Assembly (NCBI GenBank): GCA_013376995.1
Contig: JACAAZ010000001.1
Span: 62,001 to 126,000 of the forward strand
From: Bacteroidota bacterium
GTDB taxonomy: Bacteria > Bacteroidota > Bacteroidia > Bacteroidales > UBA4417
Direction: 5' to 3'
Length of the DNA: 64,000 bases
A model generated the notes under the pieces. That model was not told the DNA's origin, searched no databases, and was given only the letters and a program-made list of their open reading frames with translations. The first letter of the stretch is position 1, and each line of letters opens with the position of its first letter. The position numbers and the translations under genes are program-made. Of this stretch, positions 46,382 through 62,390 are shown one piece after another.

Positions 46382-46410
46382 TTTGAGATTACCTTAATGA
46401 ATTACTTTTG
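46382..46410 (+). promoter_or_regulatory. Promoter for the hydrogenase-related operon
   Basis: TTTG at 46382-46385, a 17-base spacer and TACTTTTG at 46403-46410 match both elements of the Bacteroidota consensus. The predicted start near 46417 leaves a leader of about 100 bases before the first gene at 46519. Confidence 0.6.
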
Positions 46411-46518: not shown

Positions 46519-48546
46519 ATGGCTTTATTAATTACTTTTCTTGCTTTAACCTTATCGTCGGTTATTCTGATTCCTTTTTTTTCTGCAAGGTGGAAGGGAA
46601 AACTTATGATCGGAACAGTGTTGCTGAATTCTGTAGTAAGCGCAATTCCGGCTGTTCAATGTTTTTTGGGTTTCGATTTCAGGCTAACTCTTCCTGGTTC
46701 ACTTGTTACAGGTGAGATACCGGTCAGTATGGATGCATTGTCCTCCTGGTTTGTGCTTCTGATCAACTTTACAATGCTGACAGGGGCTTTTTACGGTCAT
46801 AGCTACCTCAAGGCTTACAGGGATCAGCGCAATGAGTTATCAGTTCATCATATTGCCTATGTGCTGGTTCATGCATCCCTGATTTCCATTTGTGTATTAC
46901 AGAACAGTATGGCTTTCCTCATCGCCTGGGAAATTATGGCATTGAGCTCTTTTGTACTTATTATATTTGAGCATCTTAAGCATGATACATTAAAAGCCGG
47001 GATCAATTTTCTGGTTCAGTCACACGTAAGTGTCCTTTTTCTTGTTTTAGGTTTCATTTGGGTAGGCACCAGCATGAATTCATTTGGATTTAAGGCTATA
47101 TCTGACTTTGCGCTTCTGCAGCCTCATGCCAGCAGCCTGATATTGCTCATCCTGTTTTTTATAGGTTTTGCCATCAAAGCCGGATTTGTTCCCTTTCATA
47201 CCTGGCTGCCCTATGCCCATCCGGCTGCACCGGCTCATGTTTCAGGAGTGATGTCGGGTGTGATCATTAAGATTGGTATTTATGGAATCCTGCGTATGCT
47301 ACTGCTTGTCAGGCATGATTTTATTTCGATTGGTTACATAATACTTATCGTCTCTGTTATTTCAGGAGTCTATGGGGTTATGCTTGCAACCATACAACAT
47401 AACCTTAAAAAATTATTGGCATTCCATAGCATCGAAAATATTGGTATCATAGGAATGGGTATAGGGCTTGGATGCCTAGGGCTGGGATATGGTATTATGC
47501 CCCTTGTCGTATTGGGTTTTGCGGGTGCATTGCTGCATACGCTAAATCATTCCCTTTTCAAATCAGTCCTGTTCTATGCATCCGGCAATGTTTACCAGGC
47601 TACTCATACAATGAACCTGGAACGGCTTGGCGGGCTAATAAAAAAGATGCCTAAAACATCCCTGGTATTTCTGGTTGCAGCAATGGCTATTTGCGGACTT
47701 CCGCCGTTCAATGGGTTTATATCTGAATTCCTGATCTATTCAGGTATATTATCGGGGTTAAAATCCGCCAACCTGACACTGGTATGGATGTTGGCATTTG
47801 CAATATTAGGTCTAGTTTCAATTGGTGGACTGGCTATCATGTGCTTTACCAAAGCTTTTGGTAGCGTATTTCTAGGAAGTCCGCGTCAAACCCTTCGTTC
47901 TAATCCTGAAGAAGCCGGGCCTCTTTCTTTGTTTCCACTTTATGCAGGAATTCTGTTGATTGTTCTCATTGGAATTTTCCCATCACTAGTATTCCAGGTG
48001 TTGAATAAGCCTGTTTCCCAGTTTGTGTCAATATCAGGGATGCCGGTTCAGGCTGAGGGTTTGCTTTCATTTCCTGGATTAAACTGGATTGGAGTAGCTT
48101 CAGCCGGGATTTTTGGAGTGGTGGGGATACTGATGTTCATTCGCTGGAAAGTTACACATAAAAGAGAGATCGTAACCGGCCCAACCTGGGGATGTGGATA
48201 TGTGGCACCGAACCCACGCATGCAATACACTGCAAGTTCTTATGTCAGAACCTACAGAAAATTAGCCGAGCCGATGCTTTCCATTGATGTAAAAAAGACA
48301 GAAATCTCCGGGATTTTTCCTGAGGTTGGAAAACATGAAACTCATCCTTACGACAAGGCCGAATCCTGGATTATTGATTTTCCTGTGCGACAGCTGCAGG
48401 TTTTTATCAACAGGTTTTCCTTCCTTCAGAATGGCAAGTTACAGGTGTATATCTTGTATGGCGTTCTCTTTATTTCGCTGATTCTTATCATTCCTTTGGT
48501 GTATGATAAGATAGTTTCGGCGATTCAACTTCTTAACCAGATGTAA
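46519..48546 (+). CDS. HyfB/NuoL-like proton-pumping membrane subunit of a hydrogenase-related complex
   Basis: A 675-residue protein with about 14-16 membrane helices, homologous to HyfB/HycC and complex I antiporter-like subunits. Conserved ion-path residues are visible: the glutamate in FLIAWEIMALSSF, the lysine in GFAIKAGFVPFHTWLPYAHP, the second lysine in VIIKIGIYG, and HSLFKSVLFYASG. A C-terminal tail beyond about residue 540 contains GCGYVAPNPRMQYTASSY, as in HyfB-type proteins. It heads the six-gene operon; the next gene starts two bases after its stop. Confidence 0.9.
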   Translation: MALLITFLALTLSSVILIPFFSARWKGKLMIGTVLLNSVVSAIPAVQCFLGFDFRLTLPGSLVTGEIPVSMDALSSWFVLLINFTMLTGAFYGHSYLKAYRDQRNELSVHHIAYVLVHASLISICVLQNSMAFLIAWEIMALSSFVLIIFEHLKHDTLKAGINFLVQSHVSVLFLVLGFIWVGTSMNSFGFKAISDFALLQPHASSLILLILFFIGFAIKAGFVPFHTWLPYAHPAAPAHVSGVMSGVIIKIGIYGILRMLLLVRHDFISIGYIILIVSVISGVYGVMLATIQHNLKKLLAFHSIENIGIIGMGIGLGCLGLGYGIMPLVVLGFAGALLHTLNHSLFKSVLFYASGNVYQATHTMNLERLGGLIKKMPKTSLVFLVAAMAICGLPPFNGFISEFLIYSGILSGLKSANLTLVWMLAFAILGLVSIGGLAIMCFTKAFGSVFLGSPRQTLRSNPEEAGPLSLFPLYAGILLIVLIGIFPSLVFQVLNKPVSQFVSISGMPVQAEGLLSFPGLNWIGVASAGIFGVVGILMFIRWKVTHKREIVTGPTWGCGYVAPNPRMQYTASSYVRTYRKLAEPMLSIDVKKTEISGIFPEVGKHETHPYDKAESWIIDFPVRQLQVFINRFSFLQNGKLQVYILYGVLFISLILIIPLVYDKIVSAIQLLNQM

Positions 48547-48547
48547 G

Positions 48548-49453
48548 ATGCTGAGCTTTATCCTGATCATACTAGCCGCTTCCATCTTTACCGGGATTGT
48601 AAACCGGGTAAGAAGTTTAGTTTCCGGTAGAAAAGGCCCCGGGCTTTTCCAGCCTATACGTGATGTTGTCCGGCTCTTCAGGAAAGGATCCGTTTATAGT
48701 GATACCTGCAGCTGGATATTCAAACTGGCCCCGAGTGTGAGCATGGCCACTGTCCTGATGGCAATGTTGGTTATCCCCTTTGCAAGAACAAAGGGAGTTC
48801 TTTCATTTGAGGGTGATTTTGTGTTTTTTGCTTATGTGCTGGCACTTGGGAAATTCTTTTCCATAATAGCATCCTGGGATACCGGCAACAGTTTCGAAGG
48901 AATGGGTGCAAGCAGGGAGGCCTTGTATTCGACCCTGGCAGAACCAGCGTTCTTTATCCTGATCGGTTCATTTGCCATGTTAACGGGATACACTTCGTTT
49001 TATGACATCTTCAGGACCCTTCATTTCGGGTCCTATATCTCATACTTGCTGGGCTTACTGGCAACTTTTGTATTGATCACACTGGCAATGATCGAGAACA
49101 GCCGCATGCCGGTTGATGATCCTAGGACCCATCTTGAACTTACCATGATCCATGAGGTGATGATACTTGATAACAGTGGATTTGACCTAGGATTGATCCT
49201 TTCAACATCTTACCTGAAATTTGCCCTGTACGGAGCCCTGATCGCCAATTTCTTCATTGATATCATGCCCTGGTACATTGCAATTCCATCCTTTTTTGGC
49301 ATTCAGTTCCTGGTTGCAATAGCAGTCGGGATATGGGAATCGTTCACTGCCAGGTTCAGGATGAGTCATAATCCGCAATTCATCTTTATCCTGTCATCAG
49401 TTTCGCTCCTCATATTTTTTGGAGTGATGCTGGTTCTTCACATGTTCAATTAA
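48548..49453 (+). CDS. HyfC/NuoH-like membrane subunit
   Basis: A 301-residue membrane protein homologous to HyfC/HycD and complex I NuoH, which joins the redox arm to the ion-pumping arm. Family motifs are intact: GRKGPGLFQPIRDVVRLFRK on the first cytoplasmic loop, SFEGMGASREALYSTLAEP, and ENSRMPVDDPRTHLELTMIHE. About eight helices are predicted. The conserved acidic residues that couple quinone or hydrogenase chemistry to pumping are therefore kept, although the soluble subunits have lost their metal sites. Confidence 0.92.
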   Translation: MLSFILIILAASIFTGIVNRVRSLVSGRKGPGLFQPIRDVVRLFRKGSVYSDTCSWIFKLAPSVSMATVLMAMLVIPFARTKGVLSFEGDFVFFAYVLALGKFFSIIASWDTGNSFEGMGASREALYSTLAEPAFFILIGSFAMLTGYTSFYDIFRTLHFGSYISYLLGLLATFVLITLAMIENSRMPVDDPRTHLELTMIHEVMILDNSGFDLGLILSTSYLKFALYGALIANFFIDIMPWYIAIPSFFGIQFLVAIAVGIWESFTARFRMSHNPQFIFILSSVSLLIFFGVMLVLHMFN

Positions 49454-49465
49454 AATGAAGGAAAG

Positions 49466-50095
49466 ATGATAGATGTCCTGTTGATAATCTTCGCCAGTAG
49501 TTTGCTTTACGTGAGTATAGCCAACCGTTTGCTTACCTACATCAAGATACTCTCCTTCCAGGGTGTGTTGCTCTTTGGAGTAGCCTTCCTAGAACTGAAT
49601 GAAATGAGTACAATTAACCTCGTTTTTATCCTTCTTGAAACCATCATCTTCAAGGCAATTGCAGTTCCTATGTTTATCAATTATGTGATAAAACGGAATA
49701 ATATTACCCGGGAAGCTGAACCATTTCTGCCAAATTTTATTTCACTTATCATAGTAACGCTGATCATTATTAGTACCATAATATTGTCCACTTCCATTTC
49801 TGATCCCTATCTGAATAAAACGTTTTTCATAGTTGCACTGGCAACTATTTTCAGCGGCTTATACATCATAGCCACCAGGAAGAAGGTTATTACCCATGTT
49901 ATGGGATATATGATCATAGAGAACGGAGTGTTTATCCTTTCCCTGGCTGTTGGAAATGAAATGCCCATGCTTGTAAACCTTGGTATCATGCTCGATATTT
50001 TTGCGAGTGTTCTTATACTGGGAATATTTGTAAATAAAATTGGTGATATACTTAAGGGTGTGGATGTCAATCAATTGAGGCACCTTAGAGATTAA
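49466..50095 (+). CDS. HyfE-like membrane subunit
   Basis: A 209-residue protein with about six hydrophobic helices matching hydrogenase-4 component E, distantly related to NuoK/MrpC. Recognisable parts are the glutamates in VAFLELNEMSTINLVFILLE and GYMIIENGVFILSLAVGNEMPMLVNLGIMLD. It lies 12 bases after the HyfC-like gene and 18 before the HyfF-like gene. Confidence 0.88.
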   Translation: MIDVLLIIFASSLLYVSIANRLLTYIKILSFQGVLLFGVAFLELNEMSTINLVFILLETIIFKAIAVPMFINYVIKRNNITREAEPFLPNFISLIIVTLIIISTIILSTSISDPYLNKTFFIVALATIFSGLYIIATRKKVITHVMGYMIIENGVFILSLAVGNEMPMLVNLGIMLDIFASVLILGIFVNKIGDILKGVDVNQLRHLRD

Positions 50096-50113
50096 AACTG
50101 GTTTAAAAATACT

Positions 50114-51541
50114 ATGATTATTATATACCTGATAGCTGCTATTGCATTGAGTTTGGGATTATTCCTGAACCGGAGCACACTGGTCAATAACCTGCTGCTA
50201 TTGGTTTTTGTTGTGCTCCAGGCAGGATTTACCATTTATGAATGCTTCAACCTGAATACAATCCAGTTCGGGTTTTTCAAGCCTGATGCGATAGCTGTTT
50301 TGCTTCTGATAACGCTTAGTATTGTCAGTATCCCTGCAATTTTCCACAGCCATATATACCTGGTTACTCATCGGGAAACCAAACCCAGGGTCAGGGCAAT
50401 CTATTTCTCAGCCATGGTTTTGCTGATCACTTCAATAGGCATGGCTTACCTGGCTAACCATATTGCTGTCACCTGGATCTTTGTCGAAATAACTACCCTC
50501 TGCGCATCTGCACTTATTTATCATCATCGGAATGAACGTTCGCTCGAAGGTACCTGGAAGTATGTCTTTATCTGTGCAATCTCGGTTTCATTCATCTTTA
50601 TCGGGATTCTTTTCCTGAGTATGGCTATGCAACAGGCCGGGTCGACAGACCTTTCCTTTGCAAACCTGCTGGTGAAGGCACCCATGCTGAATATGTTCTG
50701 GCTGCGGTTATCCTTTCTATTCATCTTTACCGGCTTTACAGCAAAACTGGGACTTGTGCCCATGTATACTGCTGGGATTGATGCCAAGGATAAAGCGCCT
50801 GCGCCGGCAGCGGCACTCTTTTCAACGGTCCTGATGAACATGGGATTCCTTGGGATATTCAGGGTTTATGTAGTTATTTCTCATACTCCGTTGCATTCCT
50901 GGGCCAATAATGTTATCCTGATAGCTGCATTCCTTTCGGTCTTTGTAGCAGCTGTGTATATGATGAAGGTGAAGAACATCAAGCGGATGTTCGCCTATTC
51001 GAGTATAGAACAGATGGGTATTGCCATGCTTGGATTCGCTGCAGGCGGTATTGGTTATTACGCAGCGATCCTGCATATCATCCTTCATTCCTTTGTAAAA
51101 TCCAGCTTGTTCTTCCAGTTTAACCAGGTTTACCGAATCTATCAAAGCAAAAGTATTTACGATACAGGAAATTATTTCAAGTACAATGTAACCGGCGCAA
51201 TGGTTCTTCTGTTCGGCTTCCTCTTCATAACTGCCATGCCACCTTCTGGAATGTTTGTAAGTGAATTTATGGTATTCCGGTCAATGTTCGTTGCACACCA
51301 TATTCTCCTTCTGGTCGCTGTACTTATACTTTTAACGGTAATTATATGGGCTTTTGGAAAGAGCATGTTCAAACTTCTGTTTGCTCCACCTGTTGGATTT
51401 GATGAATCCTCTGTTGTGAAAATAAATCCTTTGCTCTCATTGTCACAATTTGCATTGCTGGGGTTATCAGTTTACCTGGGGCTCAATCCCCCGGCCCAGT
51501 TTGTTGCATTGATAAAGGAAGCCATCATTAATTTACCGTGA
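50114..51541 (+). CDS. HyfF/NuoN-like proton-pumping membrane subunit
   Basis: A 475-residue antiporter-like subunit with about 13-14 helices. Its membrane glutamate is in HIAVTWIFVEITTLCAS and its lysine in FTAKLGLVPMYT. The segment GIDAKDKAPAPAAALFSTVLMNMGF replaces the usual H-x-W-L-PDAH wording of NuoL/M, which is normal for HyfF. HSFVKSSLFFQFNQVY carries the later lysine. It is a second pumping unit beside the HyfB-like protein, giving the complex at least two antiporter-like modules. Confidence 0.9.
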   Translation: MIIIYLIAAIALSLGLFLNRSTLVNNLLLLVFVVLQAGFTIYECFNLNTIQFGFFKPDAIAVLLLITLSIVSIPAIFHSHIYLVTHRETKPRVRAIYFSAMVLLITSIGMAYLANHIAVTWIFVEITTLCASALIYHHRNERSLEGTWKYVFICAISVSFIFIGILFLSMAMQQAGSTDLSFANLLVKAPMLNMFWLRLSFLFIFTGFTAKLGLVPMYTAGIDAKDKAPAPAAALFSTVLMNMGFLGIFRVYVVISHTPLHSWANNVILIAAFLSVFVAAVYMMKVKNIKRMFAYSSIEQMGIAMLGFAAGGIGYYAAILHIILHSFVKSSLFFQFNQVYRIYQSKSIYDTGNYFKYNVTGAMVLLFGFLFITAMPPSGMFVSEFMVFRSMFVAHHILLLVAVLILLTVIIWAFGKSMFKLLFAPPVGFDESSVVKINPLLSLSQFALLGLSVYLGLNPPAQFVALIKEAIINLP

Positions 51542-51545
51542 TAAG

Positions 51546-53045
51546 ATGAAAGCTGTAAGCATCCATAATAATCAGTCCATCCCGGTAAAATCAATACCGG
51601 ATCTCAGCTACACTGAATTCCTGGAAGCTAATACCTCCCTGGTTATCAATGACCGTGAAAATCATTGTGTAAACTATTTTGGATTTCCCTTCGAAGATGG
51701 AATAAGGCTGGTTTGTTGCATTGCCAATGACCATGATCATCTCATCCATATTTCCTCAACTTTACTGAATATTGATCGGGAGTATCCATCTTTTTCTTCA
51801 CTTCATCTTTCATTTGAAAAGTTTGAACGGGAGATTCACGAGAATTTTGGAATAAAATACCTGGACCATCCCTGGCTTAAACCGGTCAGGTTTCCTTTCA
51901 ATCAATACGATACAGCTAACACTATTGCCAACTATCCCTTCTTCCAGGTTTCCGGGGAGGAAATCCATGAAGTAGGAGTGGGGCCCATTCATGCCGGGGT
52001 CATAGAACCCGGTCATTTCAGGTTTAGCTGCAATGGGGAACAGATATTGCACATGGAAATCCAACTTGGCTACCAGCATAGGGGGATTGAATACCTATTA
52101 CTTGAGAAAAAGAAGTTGCTTCAAAGGACGACCATTGCCGAGTCAATAGCCGGGGATACAGTTGCAGGACATACAACAGCTTTTATCAATCTCTTTGAAA
52201 GCCTTTCAGGTTTTAAAGCTACCGAAGACTTGAGATTCTCAAGGATGCTGGCACTTGAGCTGGAGAGGATTGCAATGCACACGGCCGATCTGAGCGCACT
52301 CTGCACAGATATAGCCTATCAATTAGGTAGTGCTGTTTATGGACGGTTACGCACACCCATCATTAACTTTCTCCAGGTATGGTGTGGGAACAGGTTAGCT
52401 AAGGGCTTGCTGCGTCCTGGTATGACTCATTTTCCTTTTACCCAGGCATTAGCAGAAAAATTAAATGCTGTTTTGGATTCCTTCGAGCCGGATTTTATAG
52501 AGATGTCCAAGAAGCTTTTCAGCCTTCCTTCAGCCTTATCCCGATTTGAGAAAACAGGAGTCGTATCTGAGGAACAGCTTTTAGAAATGGGTTGTGTAGG
52601 AATGGCAGCAAGGATGTATGGAGTTTCGAGAGATGTTAGGTTTTCTCATCCGCATGATCTCTATTCAGATATTCAACATGAACTTATCATTAAACACCAT
52701 GGGGATGTCTATTCAAGAGCCCAGATCAGGAAGCAGGAGATCATACAATCCATTGCCTTTATTAGGGAAATGCTCAAGTCAATTCCTGAACCAAAAGAAG
52801 CAGGTGAAGACTTGCAACCAATGGGAAAAAATATGTTAGCGCTATCATTGGTTGAAGGTTGGAGAGGTGAGATATGTCATTGCGCAATAACGGATTCATC
52901 CGGAGAACTTGAAGTTTATAAAGTTAAGGACCCTTCTTTCCATAACTGGTTGGCCTTAGCCATGTCAGTGAGGAACAATGAGATATCTGATTTCCCCATC
53001 TGCAACAAGAGTTTCAATTTGTCTTATTGTGGTCACGATTTGTAA
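51546..53045 (+). CDS. Hydrogenase-large-subunit-like protein (HyfG/NuoCD type) lacking all Ni ligands
   Basis: A 499-residue protein. Residues 1-120 are NuoC-like (FEREIHENFGIKYLDHPWLKPVRFPF) and the rest is a group 4 [NiFe]-hydrogenase large-subunit / NuoD fold, with QLGYQHRGIEYLL near residue 175. The N-terminal Ni motif, C-x-x-C in hydrogenases, reads ESIAGDTVAGH, so the cysteines are A202 and T205. The C-terminal motif reads SFNLSYCGHDL, with S493 and G496 where the other two cysteines belong (C495 is out of register). It cannot hold a NiFe centre. This is the defining trait of energy-converting hydrogenase-related (Ehr) complexes. Reaction unknown. Confidence 0.88.
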   Translation: MKAVSIHNNQSIPVKSIPDLSYTEFLEANTSLVINDRENHCVNYFGFPFEDGIRLVCCIANDHDHLIHISSTLLNIDREYPSFSSLHLSFEKFEREIHENFGIKYLDHPWLKPVRFPFNQYDTANTIANYPFFQVSGEEIHEVGVGPIHAGVIEPGHFRFSCNGEQILHMEIQLGYQHRGIEYLLLEKKKLLQRTTIAESIAGDTVAGHTTAFINLFESLSGFKATEDLRFSRMLALELERIAMHTADLSALCTDIAYQLGSAVYGRLRTPIINFLQVWCGNRLAKGLLRPGMTHFPFTQALAEKLNAVLDSFEPDFIEMSKKLFSLPSALSRFEKTGVVSEEQLLEMGCVGMAARMYGVSRDVRFSHPHDLYSDIQHELIIKHHGDVYSRAQIRKQEIIQSIAFIREMLKSIPEPKEAGEDLQPMGKNMLALSLVEGWRGEICHCAITDSSGELEVYKVKDPSFHNWLALAMSVRNNEISDFPICNKSFNLSYCGHDL

Positions 53046-53062
53046 AAGCAAGCCCGAAAATC

Positions 53063-53806
53063 ATGTTAGACAATCTCAAAATACTATATCACCAGGGGAA
53101 GCAATACATTCCTGACCTCACTAAGGCTGAAGTTCCGGGCATTTTTCGGGGTAGGCCTGTTATCAGCGCTTCTGAAGTTGACGAGGCGAAACTTGTTGAG
53201 CTTTGTCCTACCGGTGCAATCCAGGCAAACCCTGTTTCTATTGACTTGGGAAAATGCACGTTTTGTGGGGAGTGCGCTTTTGCATTTCCAGGTAAAATCC
53301 AATTTACCAAAGATTATAAGCTTTCGGTAAATTCCAGAACCGATCTTGTGATTATTGAAGGCAGTGATAAACCACTGGAATTAAGACCAGAGTTGATCAG
53401 GAAAGAAATCAAATCCTTTTTTGGAGGTTCGCTTAAATTGCGCCAGGTATCTGCCGGAGGTGATAATAGCTGTGAATTGGAGCTGAATGCTTGCGGAAAT
53501 GTGAATTTCGATATGGGAAGGTACGGGATTGAATTTGTGGCTTCTCCCCGCCATGCAGATGGTATTGTCATTACTGGCCCGATCCCGGCTAATATGGCTG
53601 AGCCTTTACAGATTTGTTTTGATGCCACACCCGATCCTAAACTGATCATCCTGGTTGGTACGGATGCCATCAGTGGTGGCATCTTCGAAGGCAGTCCCGC
53701 TCTTGACCGCAGTTTCCTGGATAAATATAAAGTTGATCTTTACGTACCGGGAAATCCTGTTCATCCATTGACCTTCATCAATGGTGTTCTTTCACTCATA
53801 AGGTAA
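53063..53806 (+). CDS. Fused ferredoxin / NuoB-like small subunit with only one intact [4Fe-4S] site
   Basis: A 247-residue protein joining a HycF-like N-terminus to a HycG/NuoB-like domain. In the ferredoxin part C48 (LCPTGA), C65, C68 and C71 (CTFCGEC) make one complete [4Fe-4S] site, while F75 replaces the cysteine that would serve the second. In the small-subunit part (about 120-247) the proximal-cluster ligands are D134 and C137 in AGGDNSCELEL, D201 in GTDAISGG and N231 in PGNP, so three of four are lost. SPRHADG and SGGIF are intact. The ATG at 53063, 17 bases after the preceding stop, is preferred to an in-frame TTG at 53027. Confidence 0.85.
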   Translation: MLDNLKILYHQGKQYIPDLTKAEVPGIFRGRPVISASEVDEAKLVELCPTGAIQANPVSIDLGKCTFCGECAFAFPGKIQFTKDYKLSVNSRTDLVIIEGSDKPLELRPELIRKEIKSFFGGSLKLRQVSAGGDNSCELELNACGNVNFDMGRYGIEFVASPRHADGIVITGPIPANMAEPLQICFDATPDPKLIILVGTDAISGGIFEGSPALDRSFLDKYKVDLYVPGNPVHPLTFINGVLSLIR

Positions 53807-59560: not shown

Positions 59561-60115
59561 TTAATTCAGCAATTGAATTGCGTTGATAAGCCCTTTGCCG
59601 GTTTCAATGGCTTTTTCATTTTCAGGGATCATGCCATGGTGACGGGCAGGCAATGATTTTTCTAGTCCTTTATGGATATATTCCATGCCGATAATAGGTT
59701 TCAGTTTCAGGAAACCTCCAAGGACGATCATATTGAATACTTTCAGCAAGCCTAATTTGCCCGCCATTTCAGCTGCTTCAATGGAGTAGATGTTAATATC
59801 CTTTCTTTCCGGGTGGCGGGTGATACCATTGGGATCATAGATCAGGAGACCACCGGGTTTTACCGTGTTCTCAAATTTATCCATGCTCTGCTGGTTCAGG
59901 ATAATGGCTGTATCATAGGCATTGAGGATTGGAGAGCTGATCCTTTCATCACTGATAATAACAGTAACGTTGGCTGTGCCTCCACGCATTTCCGGTCCGT
60001 AAGAAGGCATCCAGCTTACTTCCTTATTCTGCATAACGCCTGAATAGGCTAAGATCTTCCCCATGGATAGAACACCCTGTCCGCCGAACCCGGCTATGAT
60101 AATTTCTTCTGTCAT
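59561..60115 (-). CDS. 2-oxoacid:ferredoxin oxidoreductase gamma subunit
   Basis: A 184-residue gamma subunit (KorC/VorA/PorG type): IIIAGFGGQGVLSMGKILAYSG at the N-terminus, SWMPSYGPEMRGGTANVTVIIS, and MIVLGGFLKLKPII. Together with the alpha, beta and ferredoxin subunits upstream it makes a four-subunit enzyme that oxidises a 2-oxo acid to acyl-CoA, reducing ferredoxin. I prefer the ATG at 60115 over the in-frame start at 60136. It is unusually far (about 390 bases) from the beta subunit gene because of a heptamer array. Confidence 0.92.
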   Translation of the reverse strand: MTEEIIIAGFGGQGVLSMGKILAYSGVMQNKEVSWMPSYGPEMRGGTANVTVIISDERISSPILNAYDTAIILNQQSMDKFENTVKPGGLLIYDPNGITRHPERKDINIYSIEAAEMAGKLGLLKVFNMIVLGGFLKLKPIIGMEYIHKGLEKSLPARHHGMIPENEKAIETGKGLINAIQLLN

Positions 60116-60501
60116 GACTCTACTGGTTTTATTCAATTCGTTGTCTTAATATTGTCTTGATAATGCTTGCTTCCAACCTGTCTGTTCCAATCTACCTCCT
60201 ACTAGCATTAATAATGAAGACAGAGATTGGTTTTGTATTTTGTCTTTTTCCTTTTGTCTTTTGTCTTCAGCCTACAGCTTCCAGCTTACTGCTTCCTGCT
60301 TCCTGCTACCTGCTTCCTGCTACCTGCTTCCTGCTTCCAGCTTCCAGCTTCCTGCTTCCAGCTTCCTGCTTCCAGCTTACTGCTTCCTACTTCCTGCTTC
60401 CAGCTTACTGCTTCCTGGTTCCTGCTTCCTGCTTCCTACTTCCTACTTCCTACTTCCTACTTCCTGCTTCTAACTTTGGGCTCCGGGCTTTAGGCTCCCG
60501 C
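60116..60501. other. Intra-operon spacer dominated by a heptamer array
   Basis: Spacer between beta and gamma subunit genes. Besides the 7-bp array at 60279-60467 it has T-rich runs with repeated TTTTGTC words at 60232-60268. The plus strand is open in all three frames across the array only because the 7-base unit avoids stop codons; these frames are not genes. Confidence 0.65.
60279..60467 (+). repeat. 7-bp tandem array, 27 units in perfect phase (TTCCTGC family)
   Basis: Twenty-seven consecutive heptamers without a single insertion or deletion. The main forms are TTCCTGC, TTCCAGC, TTACTGC, TACCTGC and TTCCTAC. Substitutions fall mostly at positions 2, 3, 5 and 6. The array lies between the beta and gamma genes of one operon and would be transcribed as a purine-rich (GCAGGAA) RNA. 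Confidence 0.92.
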
Positions 60502-61281
60502 CTACTCCTCATTCACCTTAATATCCCCCAAAGGATAATACGGGAACATATTCTCCACCATCCATTCATTCGATTTCAGAGGTGTCATCTTCCAACCTGA
60601 ATTACAGTTGGATACGATTTCAATGAAAGACAGCCCCTTATTCAGTTTCTGATTTTCAAACGCTTTGCGTACAGCCTTTTTTGCTTTTCGGACTGCGGAA
60701 GGAGTATGAACAGCCTGGCGGGTAACATAAATAGTTCCTGGAAGTTGGGCTACCAATTCAGTTATCCTCAACGGGTTTCCCATGGTATGAACATCACGCC
60801 CATAGGGAGAAGTGCTTGACTTCATTCCCGGAAGTGTAGTTGGAGCCATCTGGCCACCTGTCATTCCGTAAATTCCGTTGTTGACGAAGATGATGACAAT
60901 ATTTTCACCCCTGTTACAGGCATGAATGGTTTCAGCAGTTCCGATGGCAGCAAGGTCACCGTCACCCTGGTAAGTGAATATGAATTTATCAGGCATCAGT
61001 CTTTTTACAGCTGTAGCAAGTGCAGGAGCACGCCCGTGAGCAGCCTGCTGCATATCGATGTTCATGAATTCGTAAGCAAGTACGGAACATCCGACAGGTG
61101 CGATACCGATAGTTTTATCCTGGATGTCCATTTCTTCGAGGACTTCCATGATGATACGGTGAGCAGTTCCATGGCCGCAACCCGGGCAATAGCTGAGAGC
61201 CTTCGGGGTTAGCAGATCCGTGCGTTTGTATACCAGGTTTTCCGGTTGTACGATTTCTGGGTTCGTTTTGAATTCAGCCAT
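60502..61281 (-). CDS. 2-oxoacid:ferredoxin oxidoreductase beta subunit
   Basis: A 259-residue thiamine-diphosphate subunit (KorB/VorC type). It has SYCPGCGHGTAHRI near the N-terminus and the ThDP/Mg motif YQGDGDLAAIGTAE followed by FVNNGIYGMTGGQ. A long in-frame extension to 61410 overlaps the alpha gene and does not look like the family, so I start at the ATG at 61281, four bases after the alpha stop. It contains the site of C-C cleavage of the 2-oxo acid together with the alpha subunit. Confidence 0.93.
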   Translation of the reverse strand: MAEFKTNPEIVQPENLVYKRTDLLTPKALSYCPGCGHGTAHRIIMEVLEEMDIQDKTIGIAPVGCSVLAYEFMNIDMQQAAHGRAPALATAVKRLMPDKFIFTYQGDGDLAAIGTAETIHACNRGENIVIIFVNNGIYGMTGGQMAPTTLPGMKSSTSPYGRDVHTMGNPLRITELVAQLPGTIYVTRQAVHTPSAVRKAKKAVRKAFENQKLNKGLSFIEIVSNCNSGWKMTPLKSNEWMVENMFPYYPLGDIKVNEE

Positions 61282-61285
61282 GATC

Positions 61286-62368
61286 CTATCCTCCGATAAT
61301 TTTTTGTTTAAGTGCTTCAACCACTTCAATAGGTGAAGGAATAATTCCCCCCATGCGGCCGAAATGTTCAACTTTAACCCTTCCTTGCGTAGCCAGTTGA
61401 ACGTCTTCAATCATTTGCCCTGCATTCATTTCCACAACCAGTATGCCTTTGACTTTTTCGGTCATCTGGGCAACAGCTTTCTTTGGGAAAGGGAAAAGGG
61501 TGATAGGACGCATCAACCCAACCTTGATACCTTGCTCAGCCGCCAGTTCAATTGCTTTCTGGCAGATACGGGCACTGGTTCCAAAGGCGATGAATGCATA
61601 ATCTGCATCCTCACATCCGATCTTTTCGTAACGGACTTCGGCCTCTTCAATTTTAGCATATTTTTCCTGCAGGAGAATATTGTGCCTCTCCATCTTAGAC
61701 GATTCAAGGTCAAGGGAAGTTATGATATTGCGTTCGCGGTCTTTTGTCTTTCCAGTAGTTGCCCAGGGAGTGTTCTTAATGATCTCTTCTTCAGTAAGCC
61801 TGGGTTTCTGAGCATCGAGCTCAACTTTTTCCATCATCTGTCCGATAGCTCCATCTGAAAGCACCATTACAGGGTTCCTGTATTTGAAAGCAAGTTCAAA
61901 TCCAAGCCCAGCAAAATCAGCCATTTCCTGGACTGAACTGGGTGCCAGGACGATCATCCTGTAATCACCATGGCCGCCACCTTTTGTAGCCTGGAAATAA
62001 TCTGATTGCGACGGTTGAATCGTACCGAGACCTGGACCGCCCCTGACCACGTTCAGGATCACACAAGGCAATTCTGAACCGGCTATGTAGGAGATTCCTT
62101 CCTGCTTAAGGCTGATACCGGGACTGGAAGAAGATGTAAGTACCTTTTTCCCACAAGATGCTCCTCCATAAACCATGTTAATGGCTGCCACTTCACTTTC
62201 AGCCTGGAGAGTGATCATACCCGTGCGCTCATGCGTTTTTTCGGCCATGAGGTATTCCATCACCTCCGATTGCGGTGTAATGGGGTAACCAAAGTATCCA
62301 TCTGCCCCGGCGCGGATAGCAGCCTCGGCAAATGCTTCATTACCCTTCATTAATTTTAATTCTTTCAT
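61286..62368 (-). CDS. vorB: 2-oxoacid:ferredoxin oxidoreductase alpha subunit (VorB/KorA type)
   Basis: A 360-residue alpha subunit. It has KGNEAFAEAAIRAGADGYFGYPITPQSE at the N-terminus, LTSSSSPGISLKQEGISYIAGSELPCV, and RGGPGLGTIQPSQSDYFQA. Length and wording are those of the subunit annotated as 3-methyl-2-oxobutanoate dehydrogenase VorB, so a branched-chain 2-oxo acid is the likely substrate, though 2-oxoglutarate cannot be excluded. It lies between the ferredoxin and beta genes. Confidence 0.92.
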   Translation of the reverse strand: MKELKLMKGNEAFAEAAIRAGADGYFGYPITPQSEVMEYLMAEKTHERTGMITLQAESEVAAINMVYGGASCGKKVLTSSSSPGISLKQEGISYIAGSELPCVILNVVRGGPGLGTIQPSQSDYFQATKGGGHGDYRMIVLAPSSVQEMADFAGLGFELAFKYRNPVMVLSDGAIGQMMEKVELDAQKPRLTEEEIIKNTPWATTGKTKDRERNIITSLDLESSKMERHNILLQEKYAKIEEAEVRYEKIGCEDADYAFIAFGTSARICQKAIELAAEQGIKVGLMRPITLFPFPKKAVAQMTEKVKGILVVEMNAGQMIEDVQLATQGRVKVEHFGRMGGIIPSPIEVVEALKQKIIGG

Positions 62369-62390
62369 ACCTGGTCTATTTCTGATTCAA

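Follow-up and report, generated by a model that had tools for sequence, protein, structure and literature searches.

An energy-converting hydrogenase-related complex of Bacteroidota that lacks the NiFe ligands and three of the four N2 ligands

How electron transfer at cluster N2 of complex I is coupled to distant ion pumping is a long-standing question, and a naturally conserved form whose membrane arm is intact and whose N2 ligands are gone would allow a direct test of the arm without electron delivery. Here, we describe a candidate for such a form in a 64,000-nt stretch of Bacteroidota DNA (contig JACAAZ010000001.1, positions 62,001 to 126,000; hereafter the window, to which all coordinates refer), where six adjacent genes encode a complex of the energy-converting hydrogenase-related (Ehr) kind. 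Ehr complexes are defined by their missing NiFe ligands, and the available parts of three papers call their function unknown or suspected (PMC6349859, PMC10284858, PMC10432482). The locus also bears on Ehr complexes as a whole.

Cofactor sites of the two peripheral subunits

A preliminary description of the locus had reported the loss of the NiFe site and had missed the loss of N2 ligands, which, judged from the alignments, is the larger point. Alignment of the small subunit (residues numbered from the TTG at 53027) to MbhJ (6cfw_J), HycG (7z0s_G), and the E. coli proteins placed the N2 ligand positions at D146, C149, D213, and N243. Three of the four N2 cysteines are replaced by conserved Asp, Asp, and Asn, and the usual C-x-x-C motif reads D146-N-S-C149. 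Among the 146 loci admitted by identity and coverage filters (the window counted once), 130 were of the window type and 16 had cysteine at all four positions (CCCC). Specifically, the window type comprised DCDN (n = 117), DADN (n = 4), DNDN (n = 3), DSDN (n = 2), and one each of DTDN, DGDN, DCEN, and DCDY. No cysteine was left at the site in 11 of the 130 window-type loci, which indicates that C149 is dispensable and that an N2 cluster cannot bind there in the usual way.

The window duplicates L003 and L005 and a locus from the same genome as L177 (L217) were left out of the 146, and the counts exclude fragments (L047-L050), loci below about 44-45% identity (L020, L021, and L213), and complex I NuoB hits, while L044 and L097, though incomplete, were kept. 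Since 18 pairs share an identical core sequence, the 146 loci reduce to 128 distinct ones, 112 of the window type and 16 CCCC. Some counts may include one species twice, once per genome collection.

The ferredoxin domain of the small subunit has changed as well. One 4Fe-4S motif (C60, C77, C80, and C83) is kept in all 146 loci. A full set of four cysteines for the outer ferredoxin cluster is found in 13 of the 16 N2-bearing loci and in none of the 130 window-type loci. By analogy with Thermus Nqo9, we take the kept cluster to be N6b, beside N2, and the lost outer one to be N6a. Thus, the window type is predicted to be left with one isolated cluster that has neither its usual inlet nor its usual outlet. 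A single-chain model of the small subunit matches NuoB and MbhJ chains (Foldseek), with a mean predicted local distance difference test score (pLDDT) of 70 that falls below 50 at residues 145-151.

In the large subunit, alignment to FHL (7z0s_E), Mbh (6cfw_L), and E. coli HycE and HyfG bore out the earlier statement that all four Ni-ligand cysteines are replaced (A202, T205, S493, and G496); E. coli HycE and HyfG have cysteine at all four positions. The two CxxC Ni-Fe motifs of group 4 [NiFe] hydrogenases are absent, and the alignment revealed no cysteine pair in register elsewhere in the subunit, an arrangement that would have overturned that statement. C495 adjoins a Ni-ligand position without occupying one and is not invariant.

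Other large-subunit residues (H40, C41, C253, and C444) are nearly invariant among window-type sequences, and we considered the large-subunit cysteines as a replacement for N2. This candidate was rejected: C41, C253, and C444 also occur in the N2-bearing relatives L206 and L208 and therefore do not look like an N2 substitute, C41 and C57 occur in the N2-bearing L007, and C57, C58, C444, or C446 is missing from some N2-less members. Likewise, the pair C444 and C253 failed as a mark of the N2-less type once L206 and L208 were added.

Distribution and ancestry of the window type

In a scan with one genome per species, 267 stretches encoded a relative of the small subunit (a number that may include complex I NuoB), and all of the best 80 of the 267 were of the window type. 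These 80 included Niastella vici, Flavihumibacter profundi, Chryseolinea serpens, Petrimonas, Mucilaginibacter, Lutibacter, Prolixibacteraceae, and Saprospiraceae, together with numerous Bacteroidota that have not been cultivated and a single record under the title Marinimicrobia. Full-length relatives numbered 15 in a sample of 395 genomes of the phylum, not counting L020 and L021, which are more distant. N2 was present in 13 of these 15, and the other two, one of them in the genome of the window itself, were of the window type. In the order sample, a full-length relative was present in 66 of 295 genomes (rows with E below 1e-80), and the N2 positions were checked in 41 loci from this sample or its fetched stretches, one of which was too distant to align. 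Within the family sample, a relative was found in 15 of 16 genomes (one as a fragment), HypD in 9 of 16, and a [NiFe] hydrogenase in 10 of 16.

Loss of N2 ligands is not confined to Bacteroidota. A plasmid copy of Allomeiothermus silvanus has T, D, E, and S at the N2 positions and one of Mycobacterium branderi has N, D, D, and A; each is known from one genome and sits on a long branch, and the two lie far apart in the tree, both with a single ferredoxin motif only. The N2 pocket of each of the three N2-less lineages contains a pair of acidic residues, and position 213 is acidic in all three; around it, M. branderi reads VGTDAISGG, as does the window. Other plasmid copies (Variovorax, Burkholderia cenocepacia, B. 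multivorans, Caballeronia, Azospirillum, Rhizobium, Bradyrhizobium, Paraburkholderia, and Cupriavidus) keep all four N2 cysteines.

Within Bacteroidota, we examined a single origin of the loss with the N2 columns excluded. The six-gene tree rejected it (approximately unbiased [AU] test, p 0.0097), while it was not rejected by the large and small subunits together (AU p 0.065), the small subunit alone (0.61), or five genes without the small subunit and without L207 (0.34). An earlier tree with fewer sisters and with the N2 columns included had united the N2-less type in one clade (support 100). Because these tests disagree between gene sets, the claim is limited to at least one loss in Bacteroidota and two elsewhere.

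In the large-subunit tree, several strongly supported nodes separate the window clade from E. coli HycE and HyfG, and the node joining all NiFe-less sequences against these two had weak support (11.5/68). The references of this tree were two active hydrogenases and one complex I.

Membrane arm, operon, and neighboring genes

The preliminary description had judged the membrane pumping residues to look intact, and their conservation among filtered relatives agrees with this. Specifically, E138, K220, K251, E306, K348, E403, and K445 of HyfB were present in 60 of 60 relatives; E125, K211, K290, K329, and E384 of HyfF in 64 of 64; E124, E132, E183, D190, E197, E203, and E264 of HyfC in 63 of 63; and E152 and D177 of HyfE in 64 of 64. 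HyfF has N242 (64 of 64) where HycC has Lys, and E. coli HyfF likewise has Asn. Two HyfC histidines, H195 and H202, were found in 63 of 63 window-type loci, in all 12 N2-bearing relatives that could be read, and in all 6 of the other Ehr-type loci. At these two positions, E. coli HyfC and HycD have Glu and Gln. The HyfC His/Glu group presumably sits in the loop that borders the quinone cavity in complex I. The ion-path residues of the membrane arm are under strong selection, and since those of HyfB, HyfC, HyfE, and HyfF are nearly invariant, the complex does not look like a relic.

All six genes are open and codirectional (Table 1). Pfam and NCBIfam profiles gave the gene order HyfB, HyfC/NuoH, HyfE/NuoK-like, HyfF, NuoC+NuoD large subunit, and ferredoxin+NuoB small subunit, in agreement with the first assignment of four Hyf-like membrane subunits and two redox subunits, with several NCBIfam scores below their curated cutoffs. 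Relatives are 44-80% identical, depending on the subunit. The open reading frame (ORF) listed for the small subunit spans 53027-53806; ATG 53063 is the more likely start because all 24 aligned sequences have the methionine that is M13 of that ORF. We could not confirm that the operon has its own well-formed promoter. The promoter-like match at 46382-46410 (TTTG-N17-TAnnTTTG) is one of 2 in the window vs 3.3 expected by chance and so carries no weight by itself; the pattern was picked after the sequence had been read.

Table 1. Genes of the operon and cofactor-site segments of the small subunit
Feature	Coordinates	Strand	Evidence
HyfB/NuoL-like antiporter-type membrane subunit, 675 aa	46519..48546	+	PF00361 E 7.7e-53; NCBIfam hydrogenase 4 subunit B E 8.7e-144, below its cutoff
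HyfC/NuoH-like membrane subunit, 301 aa	48548..49453	+	PF00146 E 4.9e-34; motif D190-D191-P-x-T-H195-L-E197-...-H202-E203
HyfE/NuoK-like membrane subunit, 209 aa	49466..50095	+	NCBIfam hydrogenase 4 membrane subunit E 5.5e-18, below its cutoff; PF00420 just below cutoff
HyfF/NuoN-like antiporter-type membrane subunit, 475 aa	50114..51541	+	PF00361 E 1.8e-41
Large subunit, NuoC-like and NuoD/HycE-like domains	51546..53045	+	PF00346 E 1.5e-32; PF00329 E 2.5e-5
Small subunit, ferredoxin domain (one 4Fe-4S motif) and NuoB/HycG-like domain (probable start)	53063..53806	+	PF01058 E 2e-19; PF00037 E 4e-5
Single 4Fe-4S motif kept in the ferredoxin domain (C60, C77, C80, C83)	53204..53275	+	146/146 loci
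First segment of the N2 site, D146-N-S-C149 (N2-bearing relatives have C-x-x-C)	53462..53473	+	Alignment, conservation
D213, third N2 ligand position	53663..53665	+	Alignment, conservation
N243, fourth N2 ligand position	53753..53755	+	Alignment, conservation

The window type is a stand-alone unit: no partner gene recurs beside its operon, the best ORF family reaching 5 of 80 loci (ORFs of at least 90 aa; many flanks are short, and antiporter-like families were merged in one cluster and not split further). In comparison, an HTH_17/PTS_EIIA_2 gene lies directly upstream of HyfB in 12 of the 16 N2-bearing Bacteroidota loci with flanks, and a gene for a SulP anion transporter lies beside the operon in 6 of 16 (five, from one family, upstream and one directly downstream). 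Three different arrangements of SulP genes were seen at N2-bearing Ehr operons, either next to the operon or within it (L152, L153, L170-L172, L151, and L161); in the more distant relative L161, a SulP-STAS-EIIA fusion lies between the large- and small-subunit genes. Neither SulP nor EIIA genes occur at L206-L208, the three N2-bearing loci nearest the window type, and the 80 window-type loci gave no EIIA hit and a single weak SulP-like one (22%, L070). One window-type locus has a Na+/H+ exchanger gene (PF00999) between its large- and small-subunit genes (L061, 7526-8743). The SulP, EIIA, and Na+/H+ exchanger neighbors speak for a link to the transport of ions or anions and not for a redox partner, though only in part of the family.

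It had also been stated that no hydrogenase maturation (hyp) gene is nearby. This holds for the stretch around the operon, yet the same genome has hypF, hypD, hypE, hypA, and hypB and a [NiFe] hydrogenase just past the window, at ~127-137 kb of the contig, i.e., 11-21 kb downstream of the operon (L150, 10196-19900). The hydrogenase large subunit has both CxxC motifs, the stretch includes a cytochrome b-like gene, and the hydrogenase small-subunit gene is cut by the stretch end; names other than HypD and the hydrogenase large subunit were assigned by eye.

Further observations concern related operons. At L207 (4272-6576), large- and small-subunit genes with all N2 cysteines adjoin a gene for a DUF349 protein, with no membrane subunit gene on the 15-kb stretch. 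Tandem HyfB-type genes open the operon in both N2-less and N2-bearing forms (L063, L129, L217, L154, L155, and L169), one of the two copies at L063 being split over two frames. A Variovorax plasmid has two Ehr-like operons in tandem (L139), and PII-like DUF190 genes lie near the Ehr-like operons of Burkholderia, Caballeronia, and Mycobacterium (L141, L162, L165, and L166).

Readings of the complex and comparison with known systems

We favor, with a confidence just short of even, the reading that the six subunits form an Ehr-type complex without electron flow through N2, acting as an ion exchanger or as a gated ion pump controlled by its peripheral arm. Since neither the NiFe ligands nor the outer ferredoxin motif is left and three of the N2 ligands are lost, there would be no known electron path from the remaining cluster to the large-subunit cavity and its former NiFe/quinone site, and therefore the membrane arm would not be driven by an internal redox reaction; ions would probably be moved without the usual passage of electrons through the complex. 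Most likely, ions (H+, Na+, or K+) would be exchanged or translocated between the two antiporter-like subunits. The peripheral arm would serve as a gate on the membrane arm, the acidic former N2 pocket would take up a proton or cation, and the lone ferredoxin cluster would sense redox state or have a structural role. More generally, and more tentatively, it is possible that the complex I/group 4 hydrogenase architecture became, more than once, a machine without N2 electron transfer, in which the N2 pocket serves as a carboxylate site for a proton or cation and ion binding or a transported substrate drives the membrane arm.

Several observations weigh against the gated-exchanger reading. C149 is kept in 119 of 130 window-type loci, which pure loss would not require, and since no member lacks the ferredoxin cluster, electrons may well still have a part to play. 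The D/D/N set may hold a mononuclear metal. The closeness of the four N2 positions to one another rests on homology to NuoB and MbhJ because the model is weak at residues 145-151. Moreover, the M. branderi copy could be degenerate: it is very divergent, lies on a long branch, has Q at the position of R440, and reads E, A, C, and G at the NiFe positions.

Alternatively, the complex may still be a redox pump, its N2 pocket holding mononuclear Fe or Mn or an Asp/Asn-ligated Fe-S cluster, or its conserved large-subunit C41, C57, C58, C253, and C444 forming another redox site, in which case the old NiFe/quinone cavity would continue to receive electrons. Asp and Asn are common ligands of hard metals, D146, D213, and N243 are nearly invariant, H40, C41, C253, and C444 are likewise conserved in the window type, and the ferredoxin motif is always kept; however, the last cysteine of the N2 site is missing from 11 of 130 loci and the large-subunit cysteines are shared with N2-bearing L206, L208, and L007 and partly missing from N2-less members, leaving a substitute cofactor somewhat unlikely. 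A role for electrons at the ferredoxin domain itself is less likely still. There, the single cluster would be a docking site for a soluble partner at which electrons enter and leave, and the arm would move upon docking or cluster reduction without N2. The motif is indeed present at 146 of 146 loci, and genes for a 2-oxoacid:ferredoxin oxidoreductase, read by eye, lie in the window at ~59564-62386 on the minus strand, ~6 kb downstream of the operon. Yet no such neighbor recurs, and a lone cluster would be a one-electron switch without an acceptor inside the complex; we consider this distinctly improbable.

The neighbors of N2-bearing operons (SulP in 6 of 16, HTH/PTS_EIIA_2 in 12 of 16, and the SulP-STAS-EIIA fusion at L161) would instead agree with transport coupled to an anion or to CO2/bicarbonate, in which the complex would build up or draw on an ion gradient to move anions, much as the DAB and NDH-1 CO2 pumps do, and the peripheral arm would be a substrate site rather than a redox site. 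The conserved HyfC H195, E197, H202, and E203, of which E. coli HyfC and HycD lack the histidines, would suit such chemistry, and the NuoL-type subunit of DAB2 is described, in the part of the source available, as coupling membrane potential to CO2 hydration (PMC13144422). The SulP and EIIA genes are absent from the nearest N2-bearing loci (L206-L208), the 80 window-type loci offer only the one weak SulP-like hit at L070, and none of the six proteins matched PF10070 (DabA); we consider this explanation unlikely. The remaining two alternatives fare worse. An ordinary Ehr redox pump with working N2-type electron transfer, as first proposed, agrees with the subunits and gene order of N2-bearing relatives but is very hard to reconcile with lost N2 ligands and with 11 of 130 loci without any cysteine at the site. 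A decaying relic of a former hydrogenase would account for the loss of several cofactor sites, and it is scarcely credible given six open genes, relatives that are 44-80% identical by subunit, and invariant ion-path residues.

The preliminary assignment to the Ehr complexes is sound insofar as the Ni-ligand CxxC motifs are missing and antiporter-like and NuoH-like subunits share one operon, and it is incomplete in that N2 ligands are missing too. Its picture of a redox complex with a donor and acceptor merely not established is doubtful because three N2 cysteines are gone, and these belonged to the only known route by which electrons could pass from the ferredoxin domain to where the NiFe/quinone site had been.

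The complex shares with complex I its domain families (NuoB, C, D, H, K, and L/N) and the fold of its small subunit, but it has no NADH module among the six genes and has lost three of the four N2 ligands. E. coli Hyf and Hyc have homologues of HyfB, C, E, and F and of both peripheral subunits; the window type differs in lacking the NiFe ligands and most N2 ligands and in having no separate HyfA/HycB or HyfH/HycF gene in its operon. With the DAB2 CO2 pump it would have in common a NuoL-type subunit coupled to non-redox chemistry, as far as the consulted part of that paper describes it (PMC13144422), while four Hyf-type membrane subunits and a NuoB/C/D-type arm, and no DabA (PF10070) hit, set the window type apart.

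Ehr complexes share with the window type a large subunit that is group 4-like and free of Ni ligands, along with antiporter-like membrane subunits; in the window type, N2 ligands have been lost as well, together with the cluster of the outer ferredoxin motif. N2 ligands are present in the 16 N2-bearing Bacteroidota relatives and most of the outside ones examined; they are not part of the Ehr definitions, and N2 loss is not mentioned, in the available parts of PMC6349859, PMC10284858, and PMC10432482. Among the matches listed, a scope outside which the original Ehr papers fall, we recognized no report of N2 loss in this superfamily. The rhizobial Hyq operon shares the BCEFGI gene order, and all four Ni ligands are likewise gone from the plasmid copies of Rhizobium sp. 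WSM1274, Bradyrhizobium, and Azospirillum. These copies differ from the window type in their small subunits, which lack a ferredoxin domain and have a cysteine at each of the four N2 positions. According to the sections available of PMC2650096, deletion of the operon has a phenotype in nitrogen-fixing culture, the operon of A. caulinodans was described as an endo-hydrogenase, and a NiFe center and an N2 cluster were inferred. In the Hyq-type large subunits L142, L143, and L167 (Azospirillum, Rhizobium, and Bradyrhizobium plasmids), the Ni positions read S, S, S, and G with N2 kept, and this loss of Ni ligands in the rhizobial copies examined casts doubt on naming Hyq a hydrogenase.

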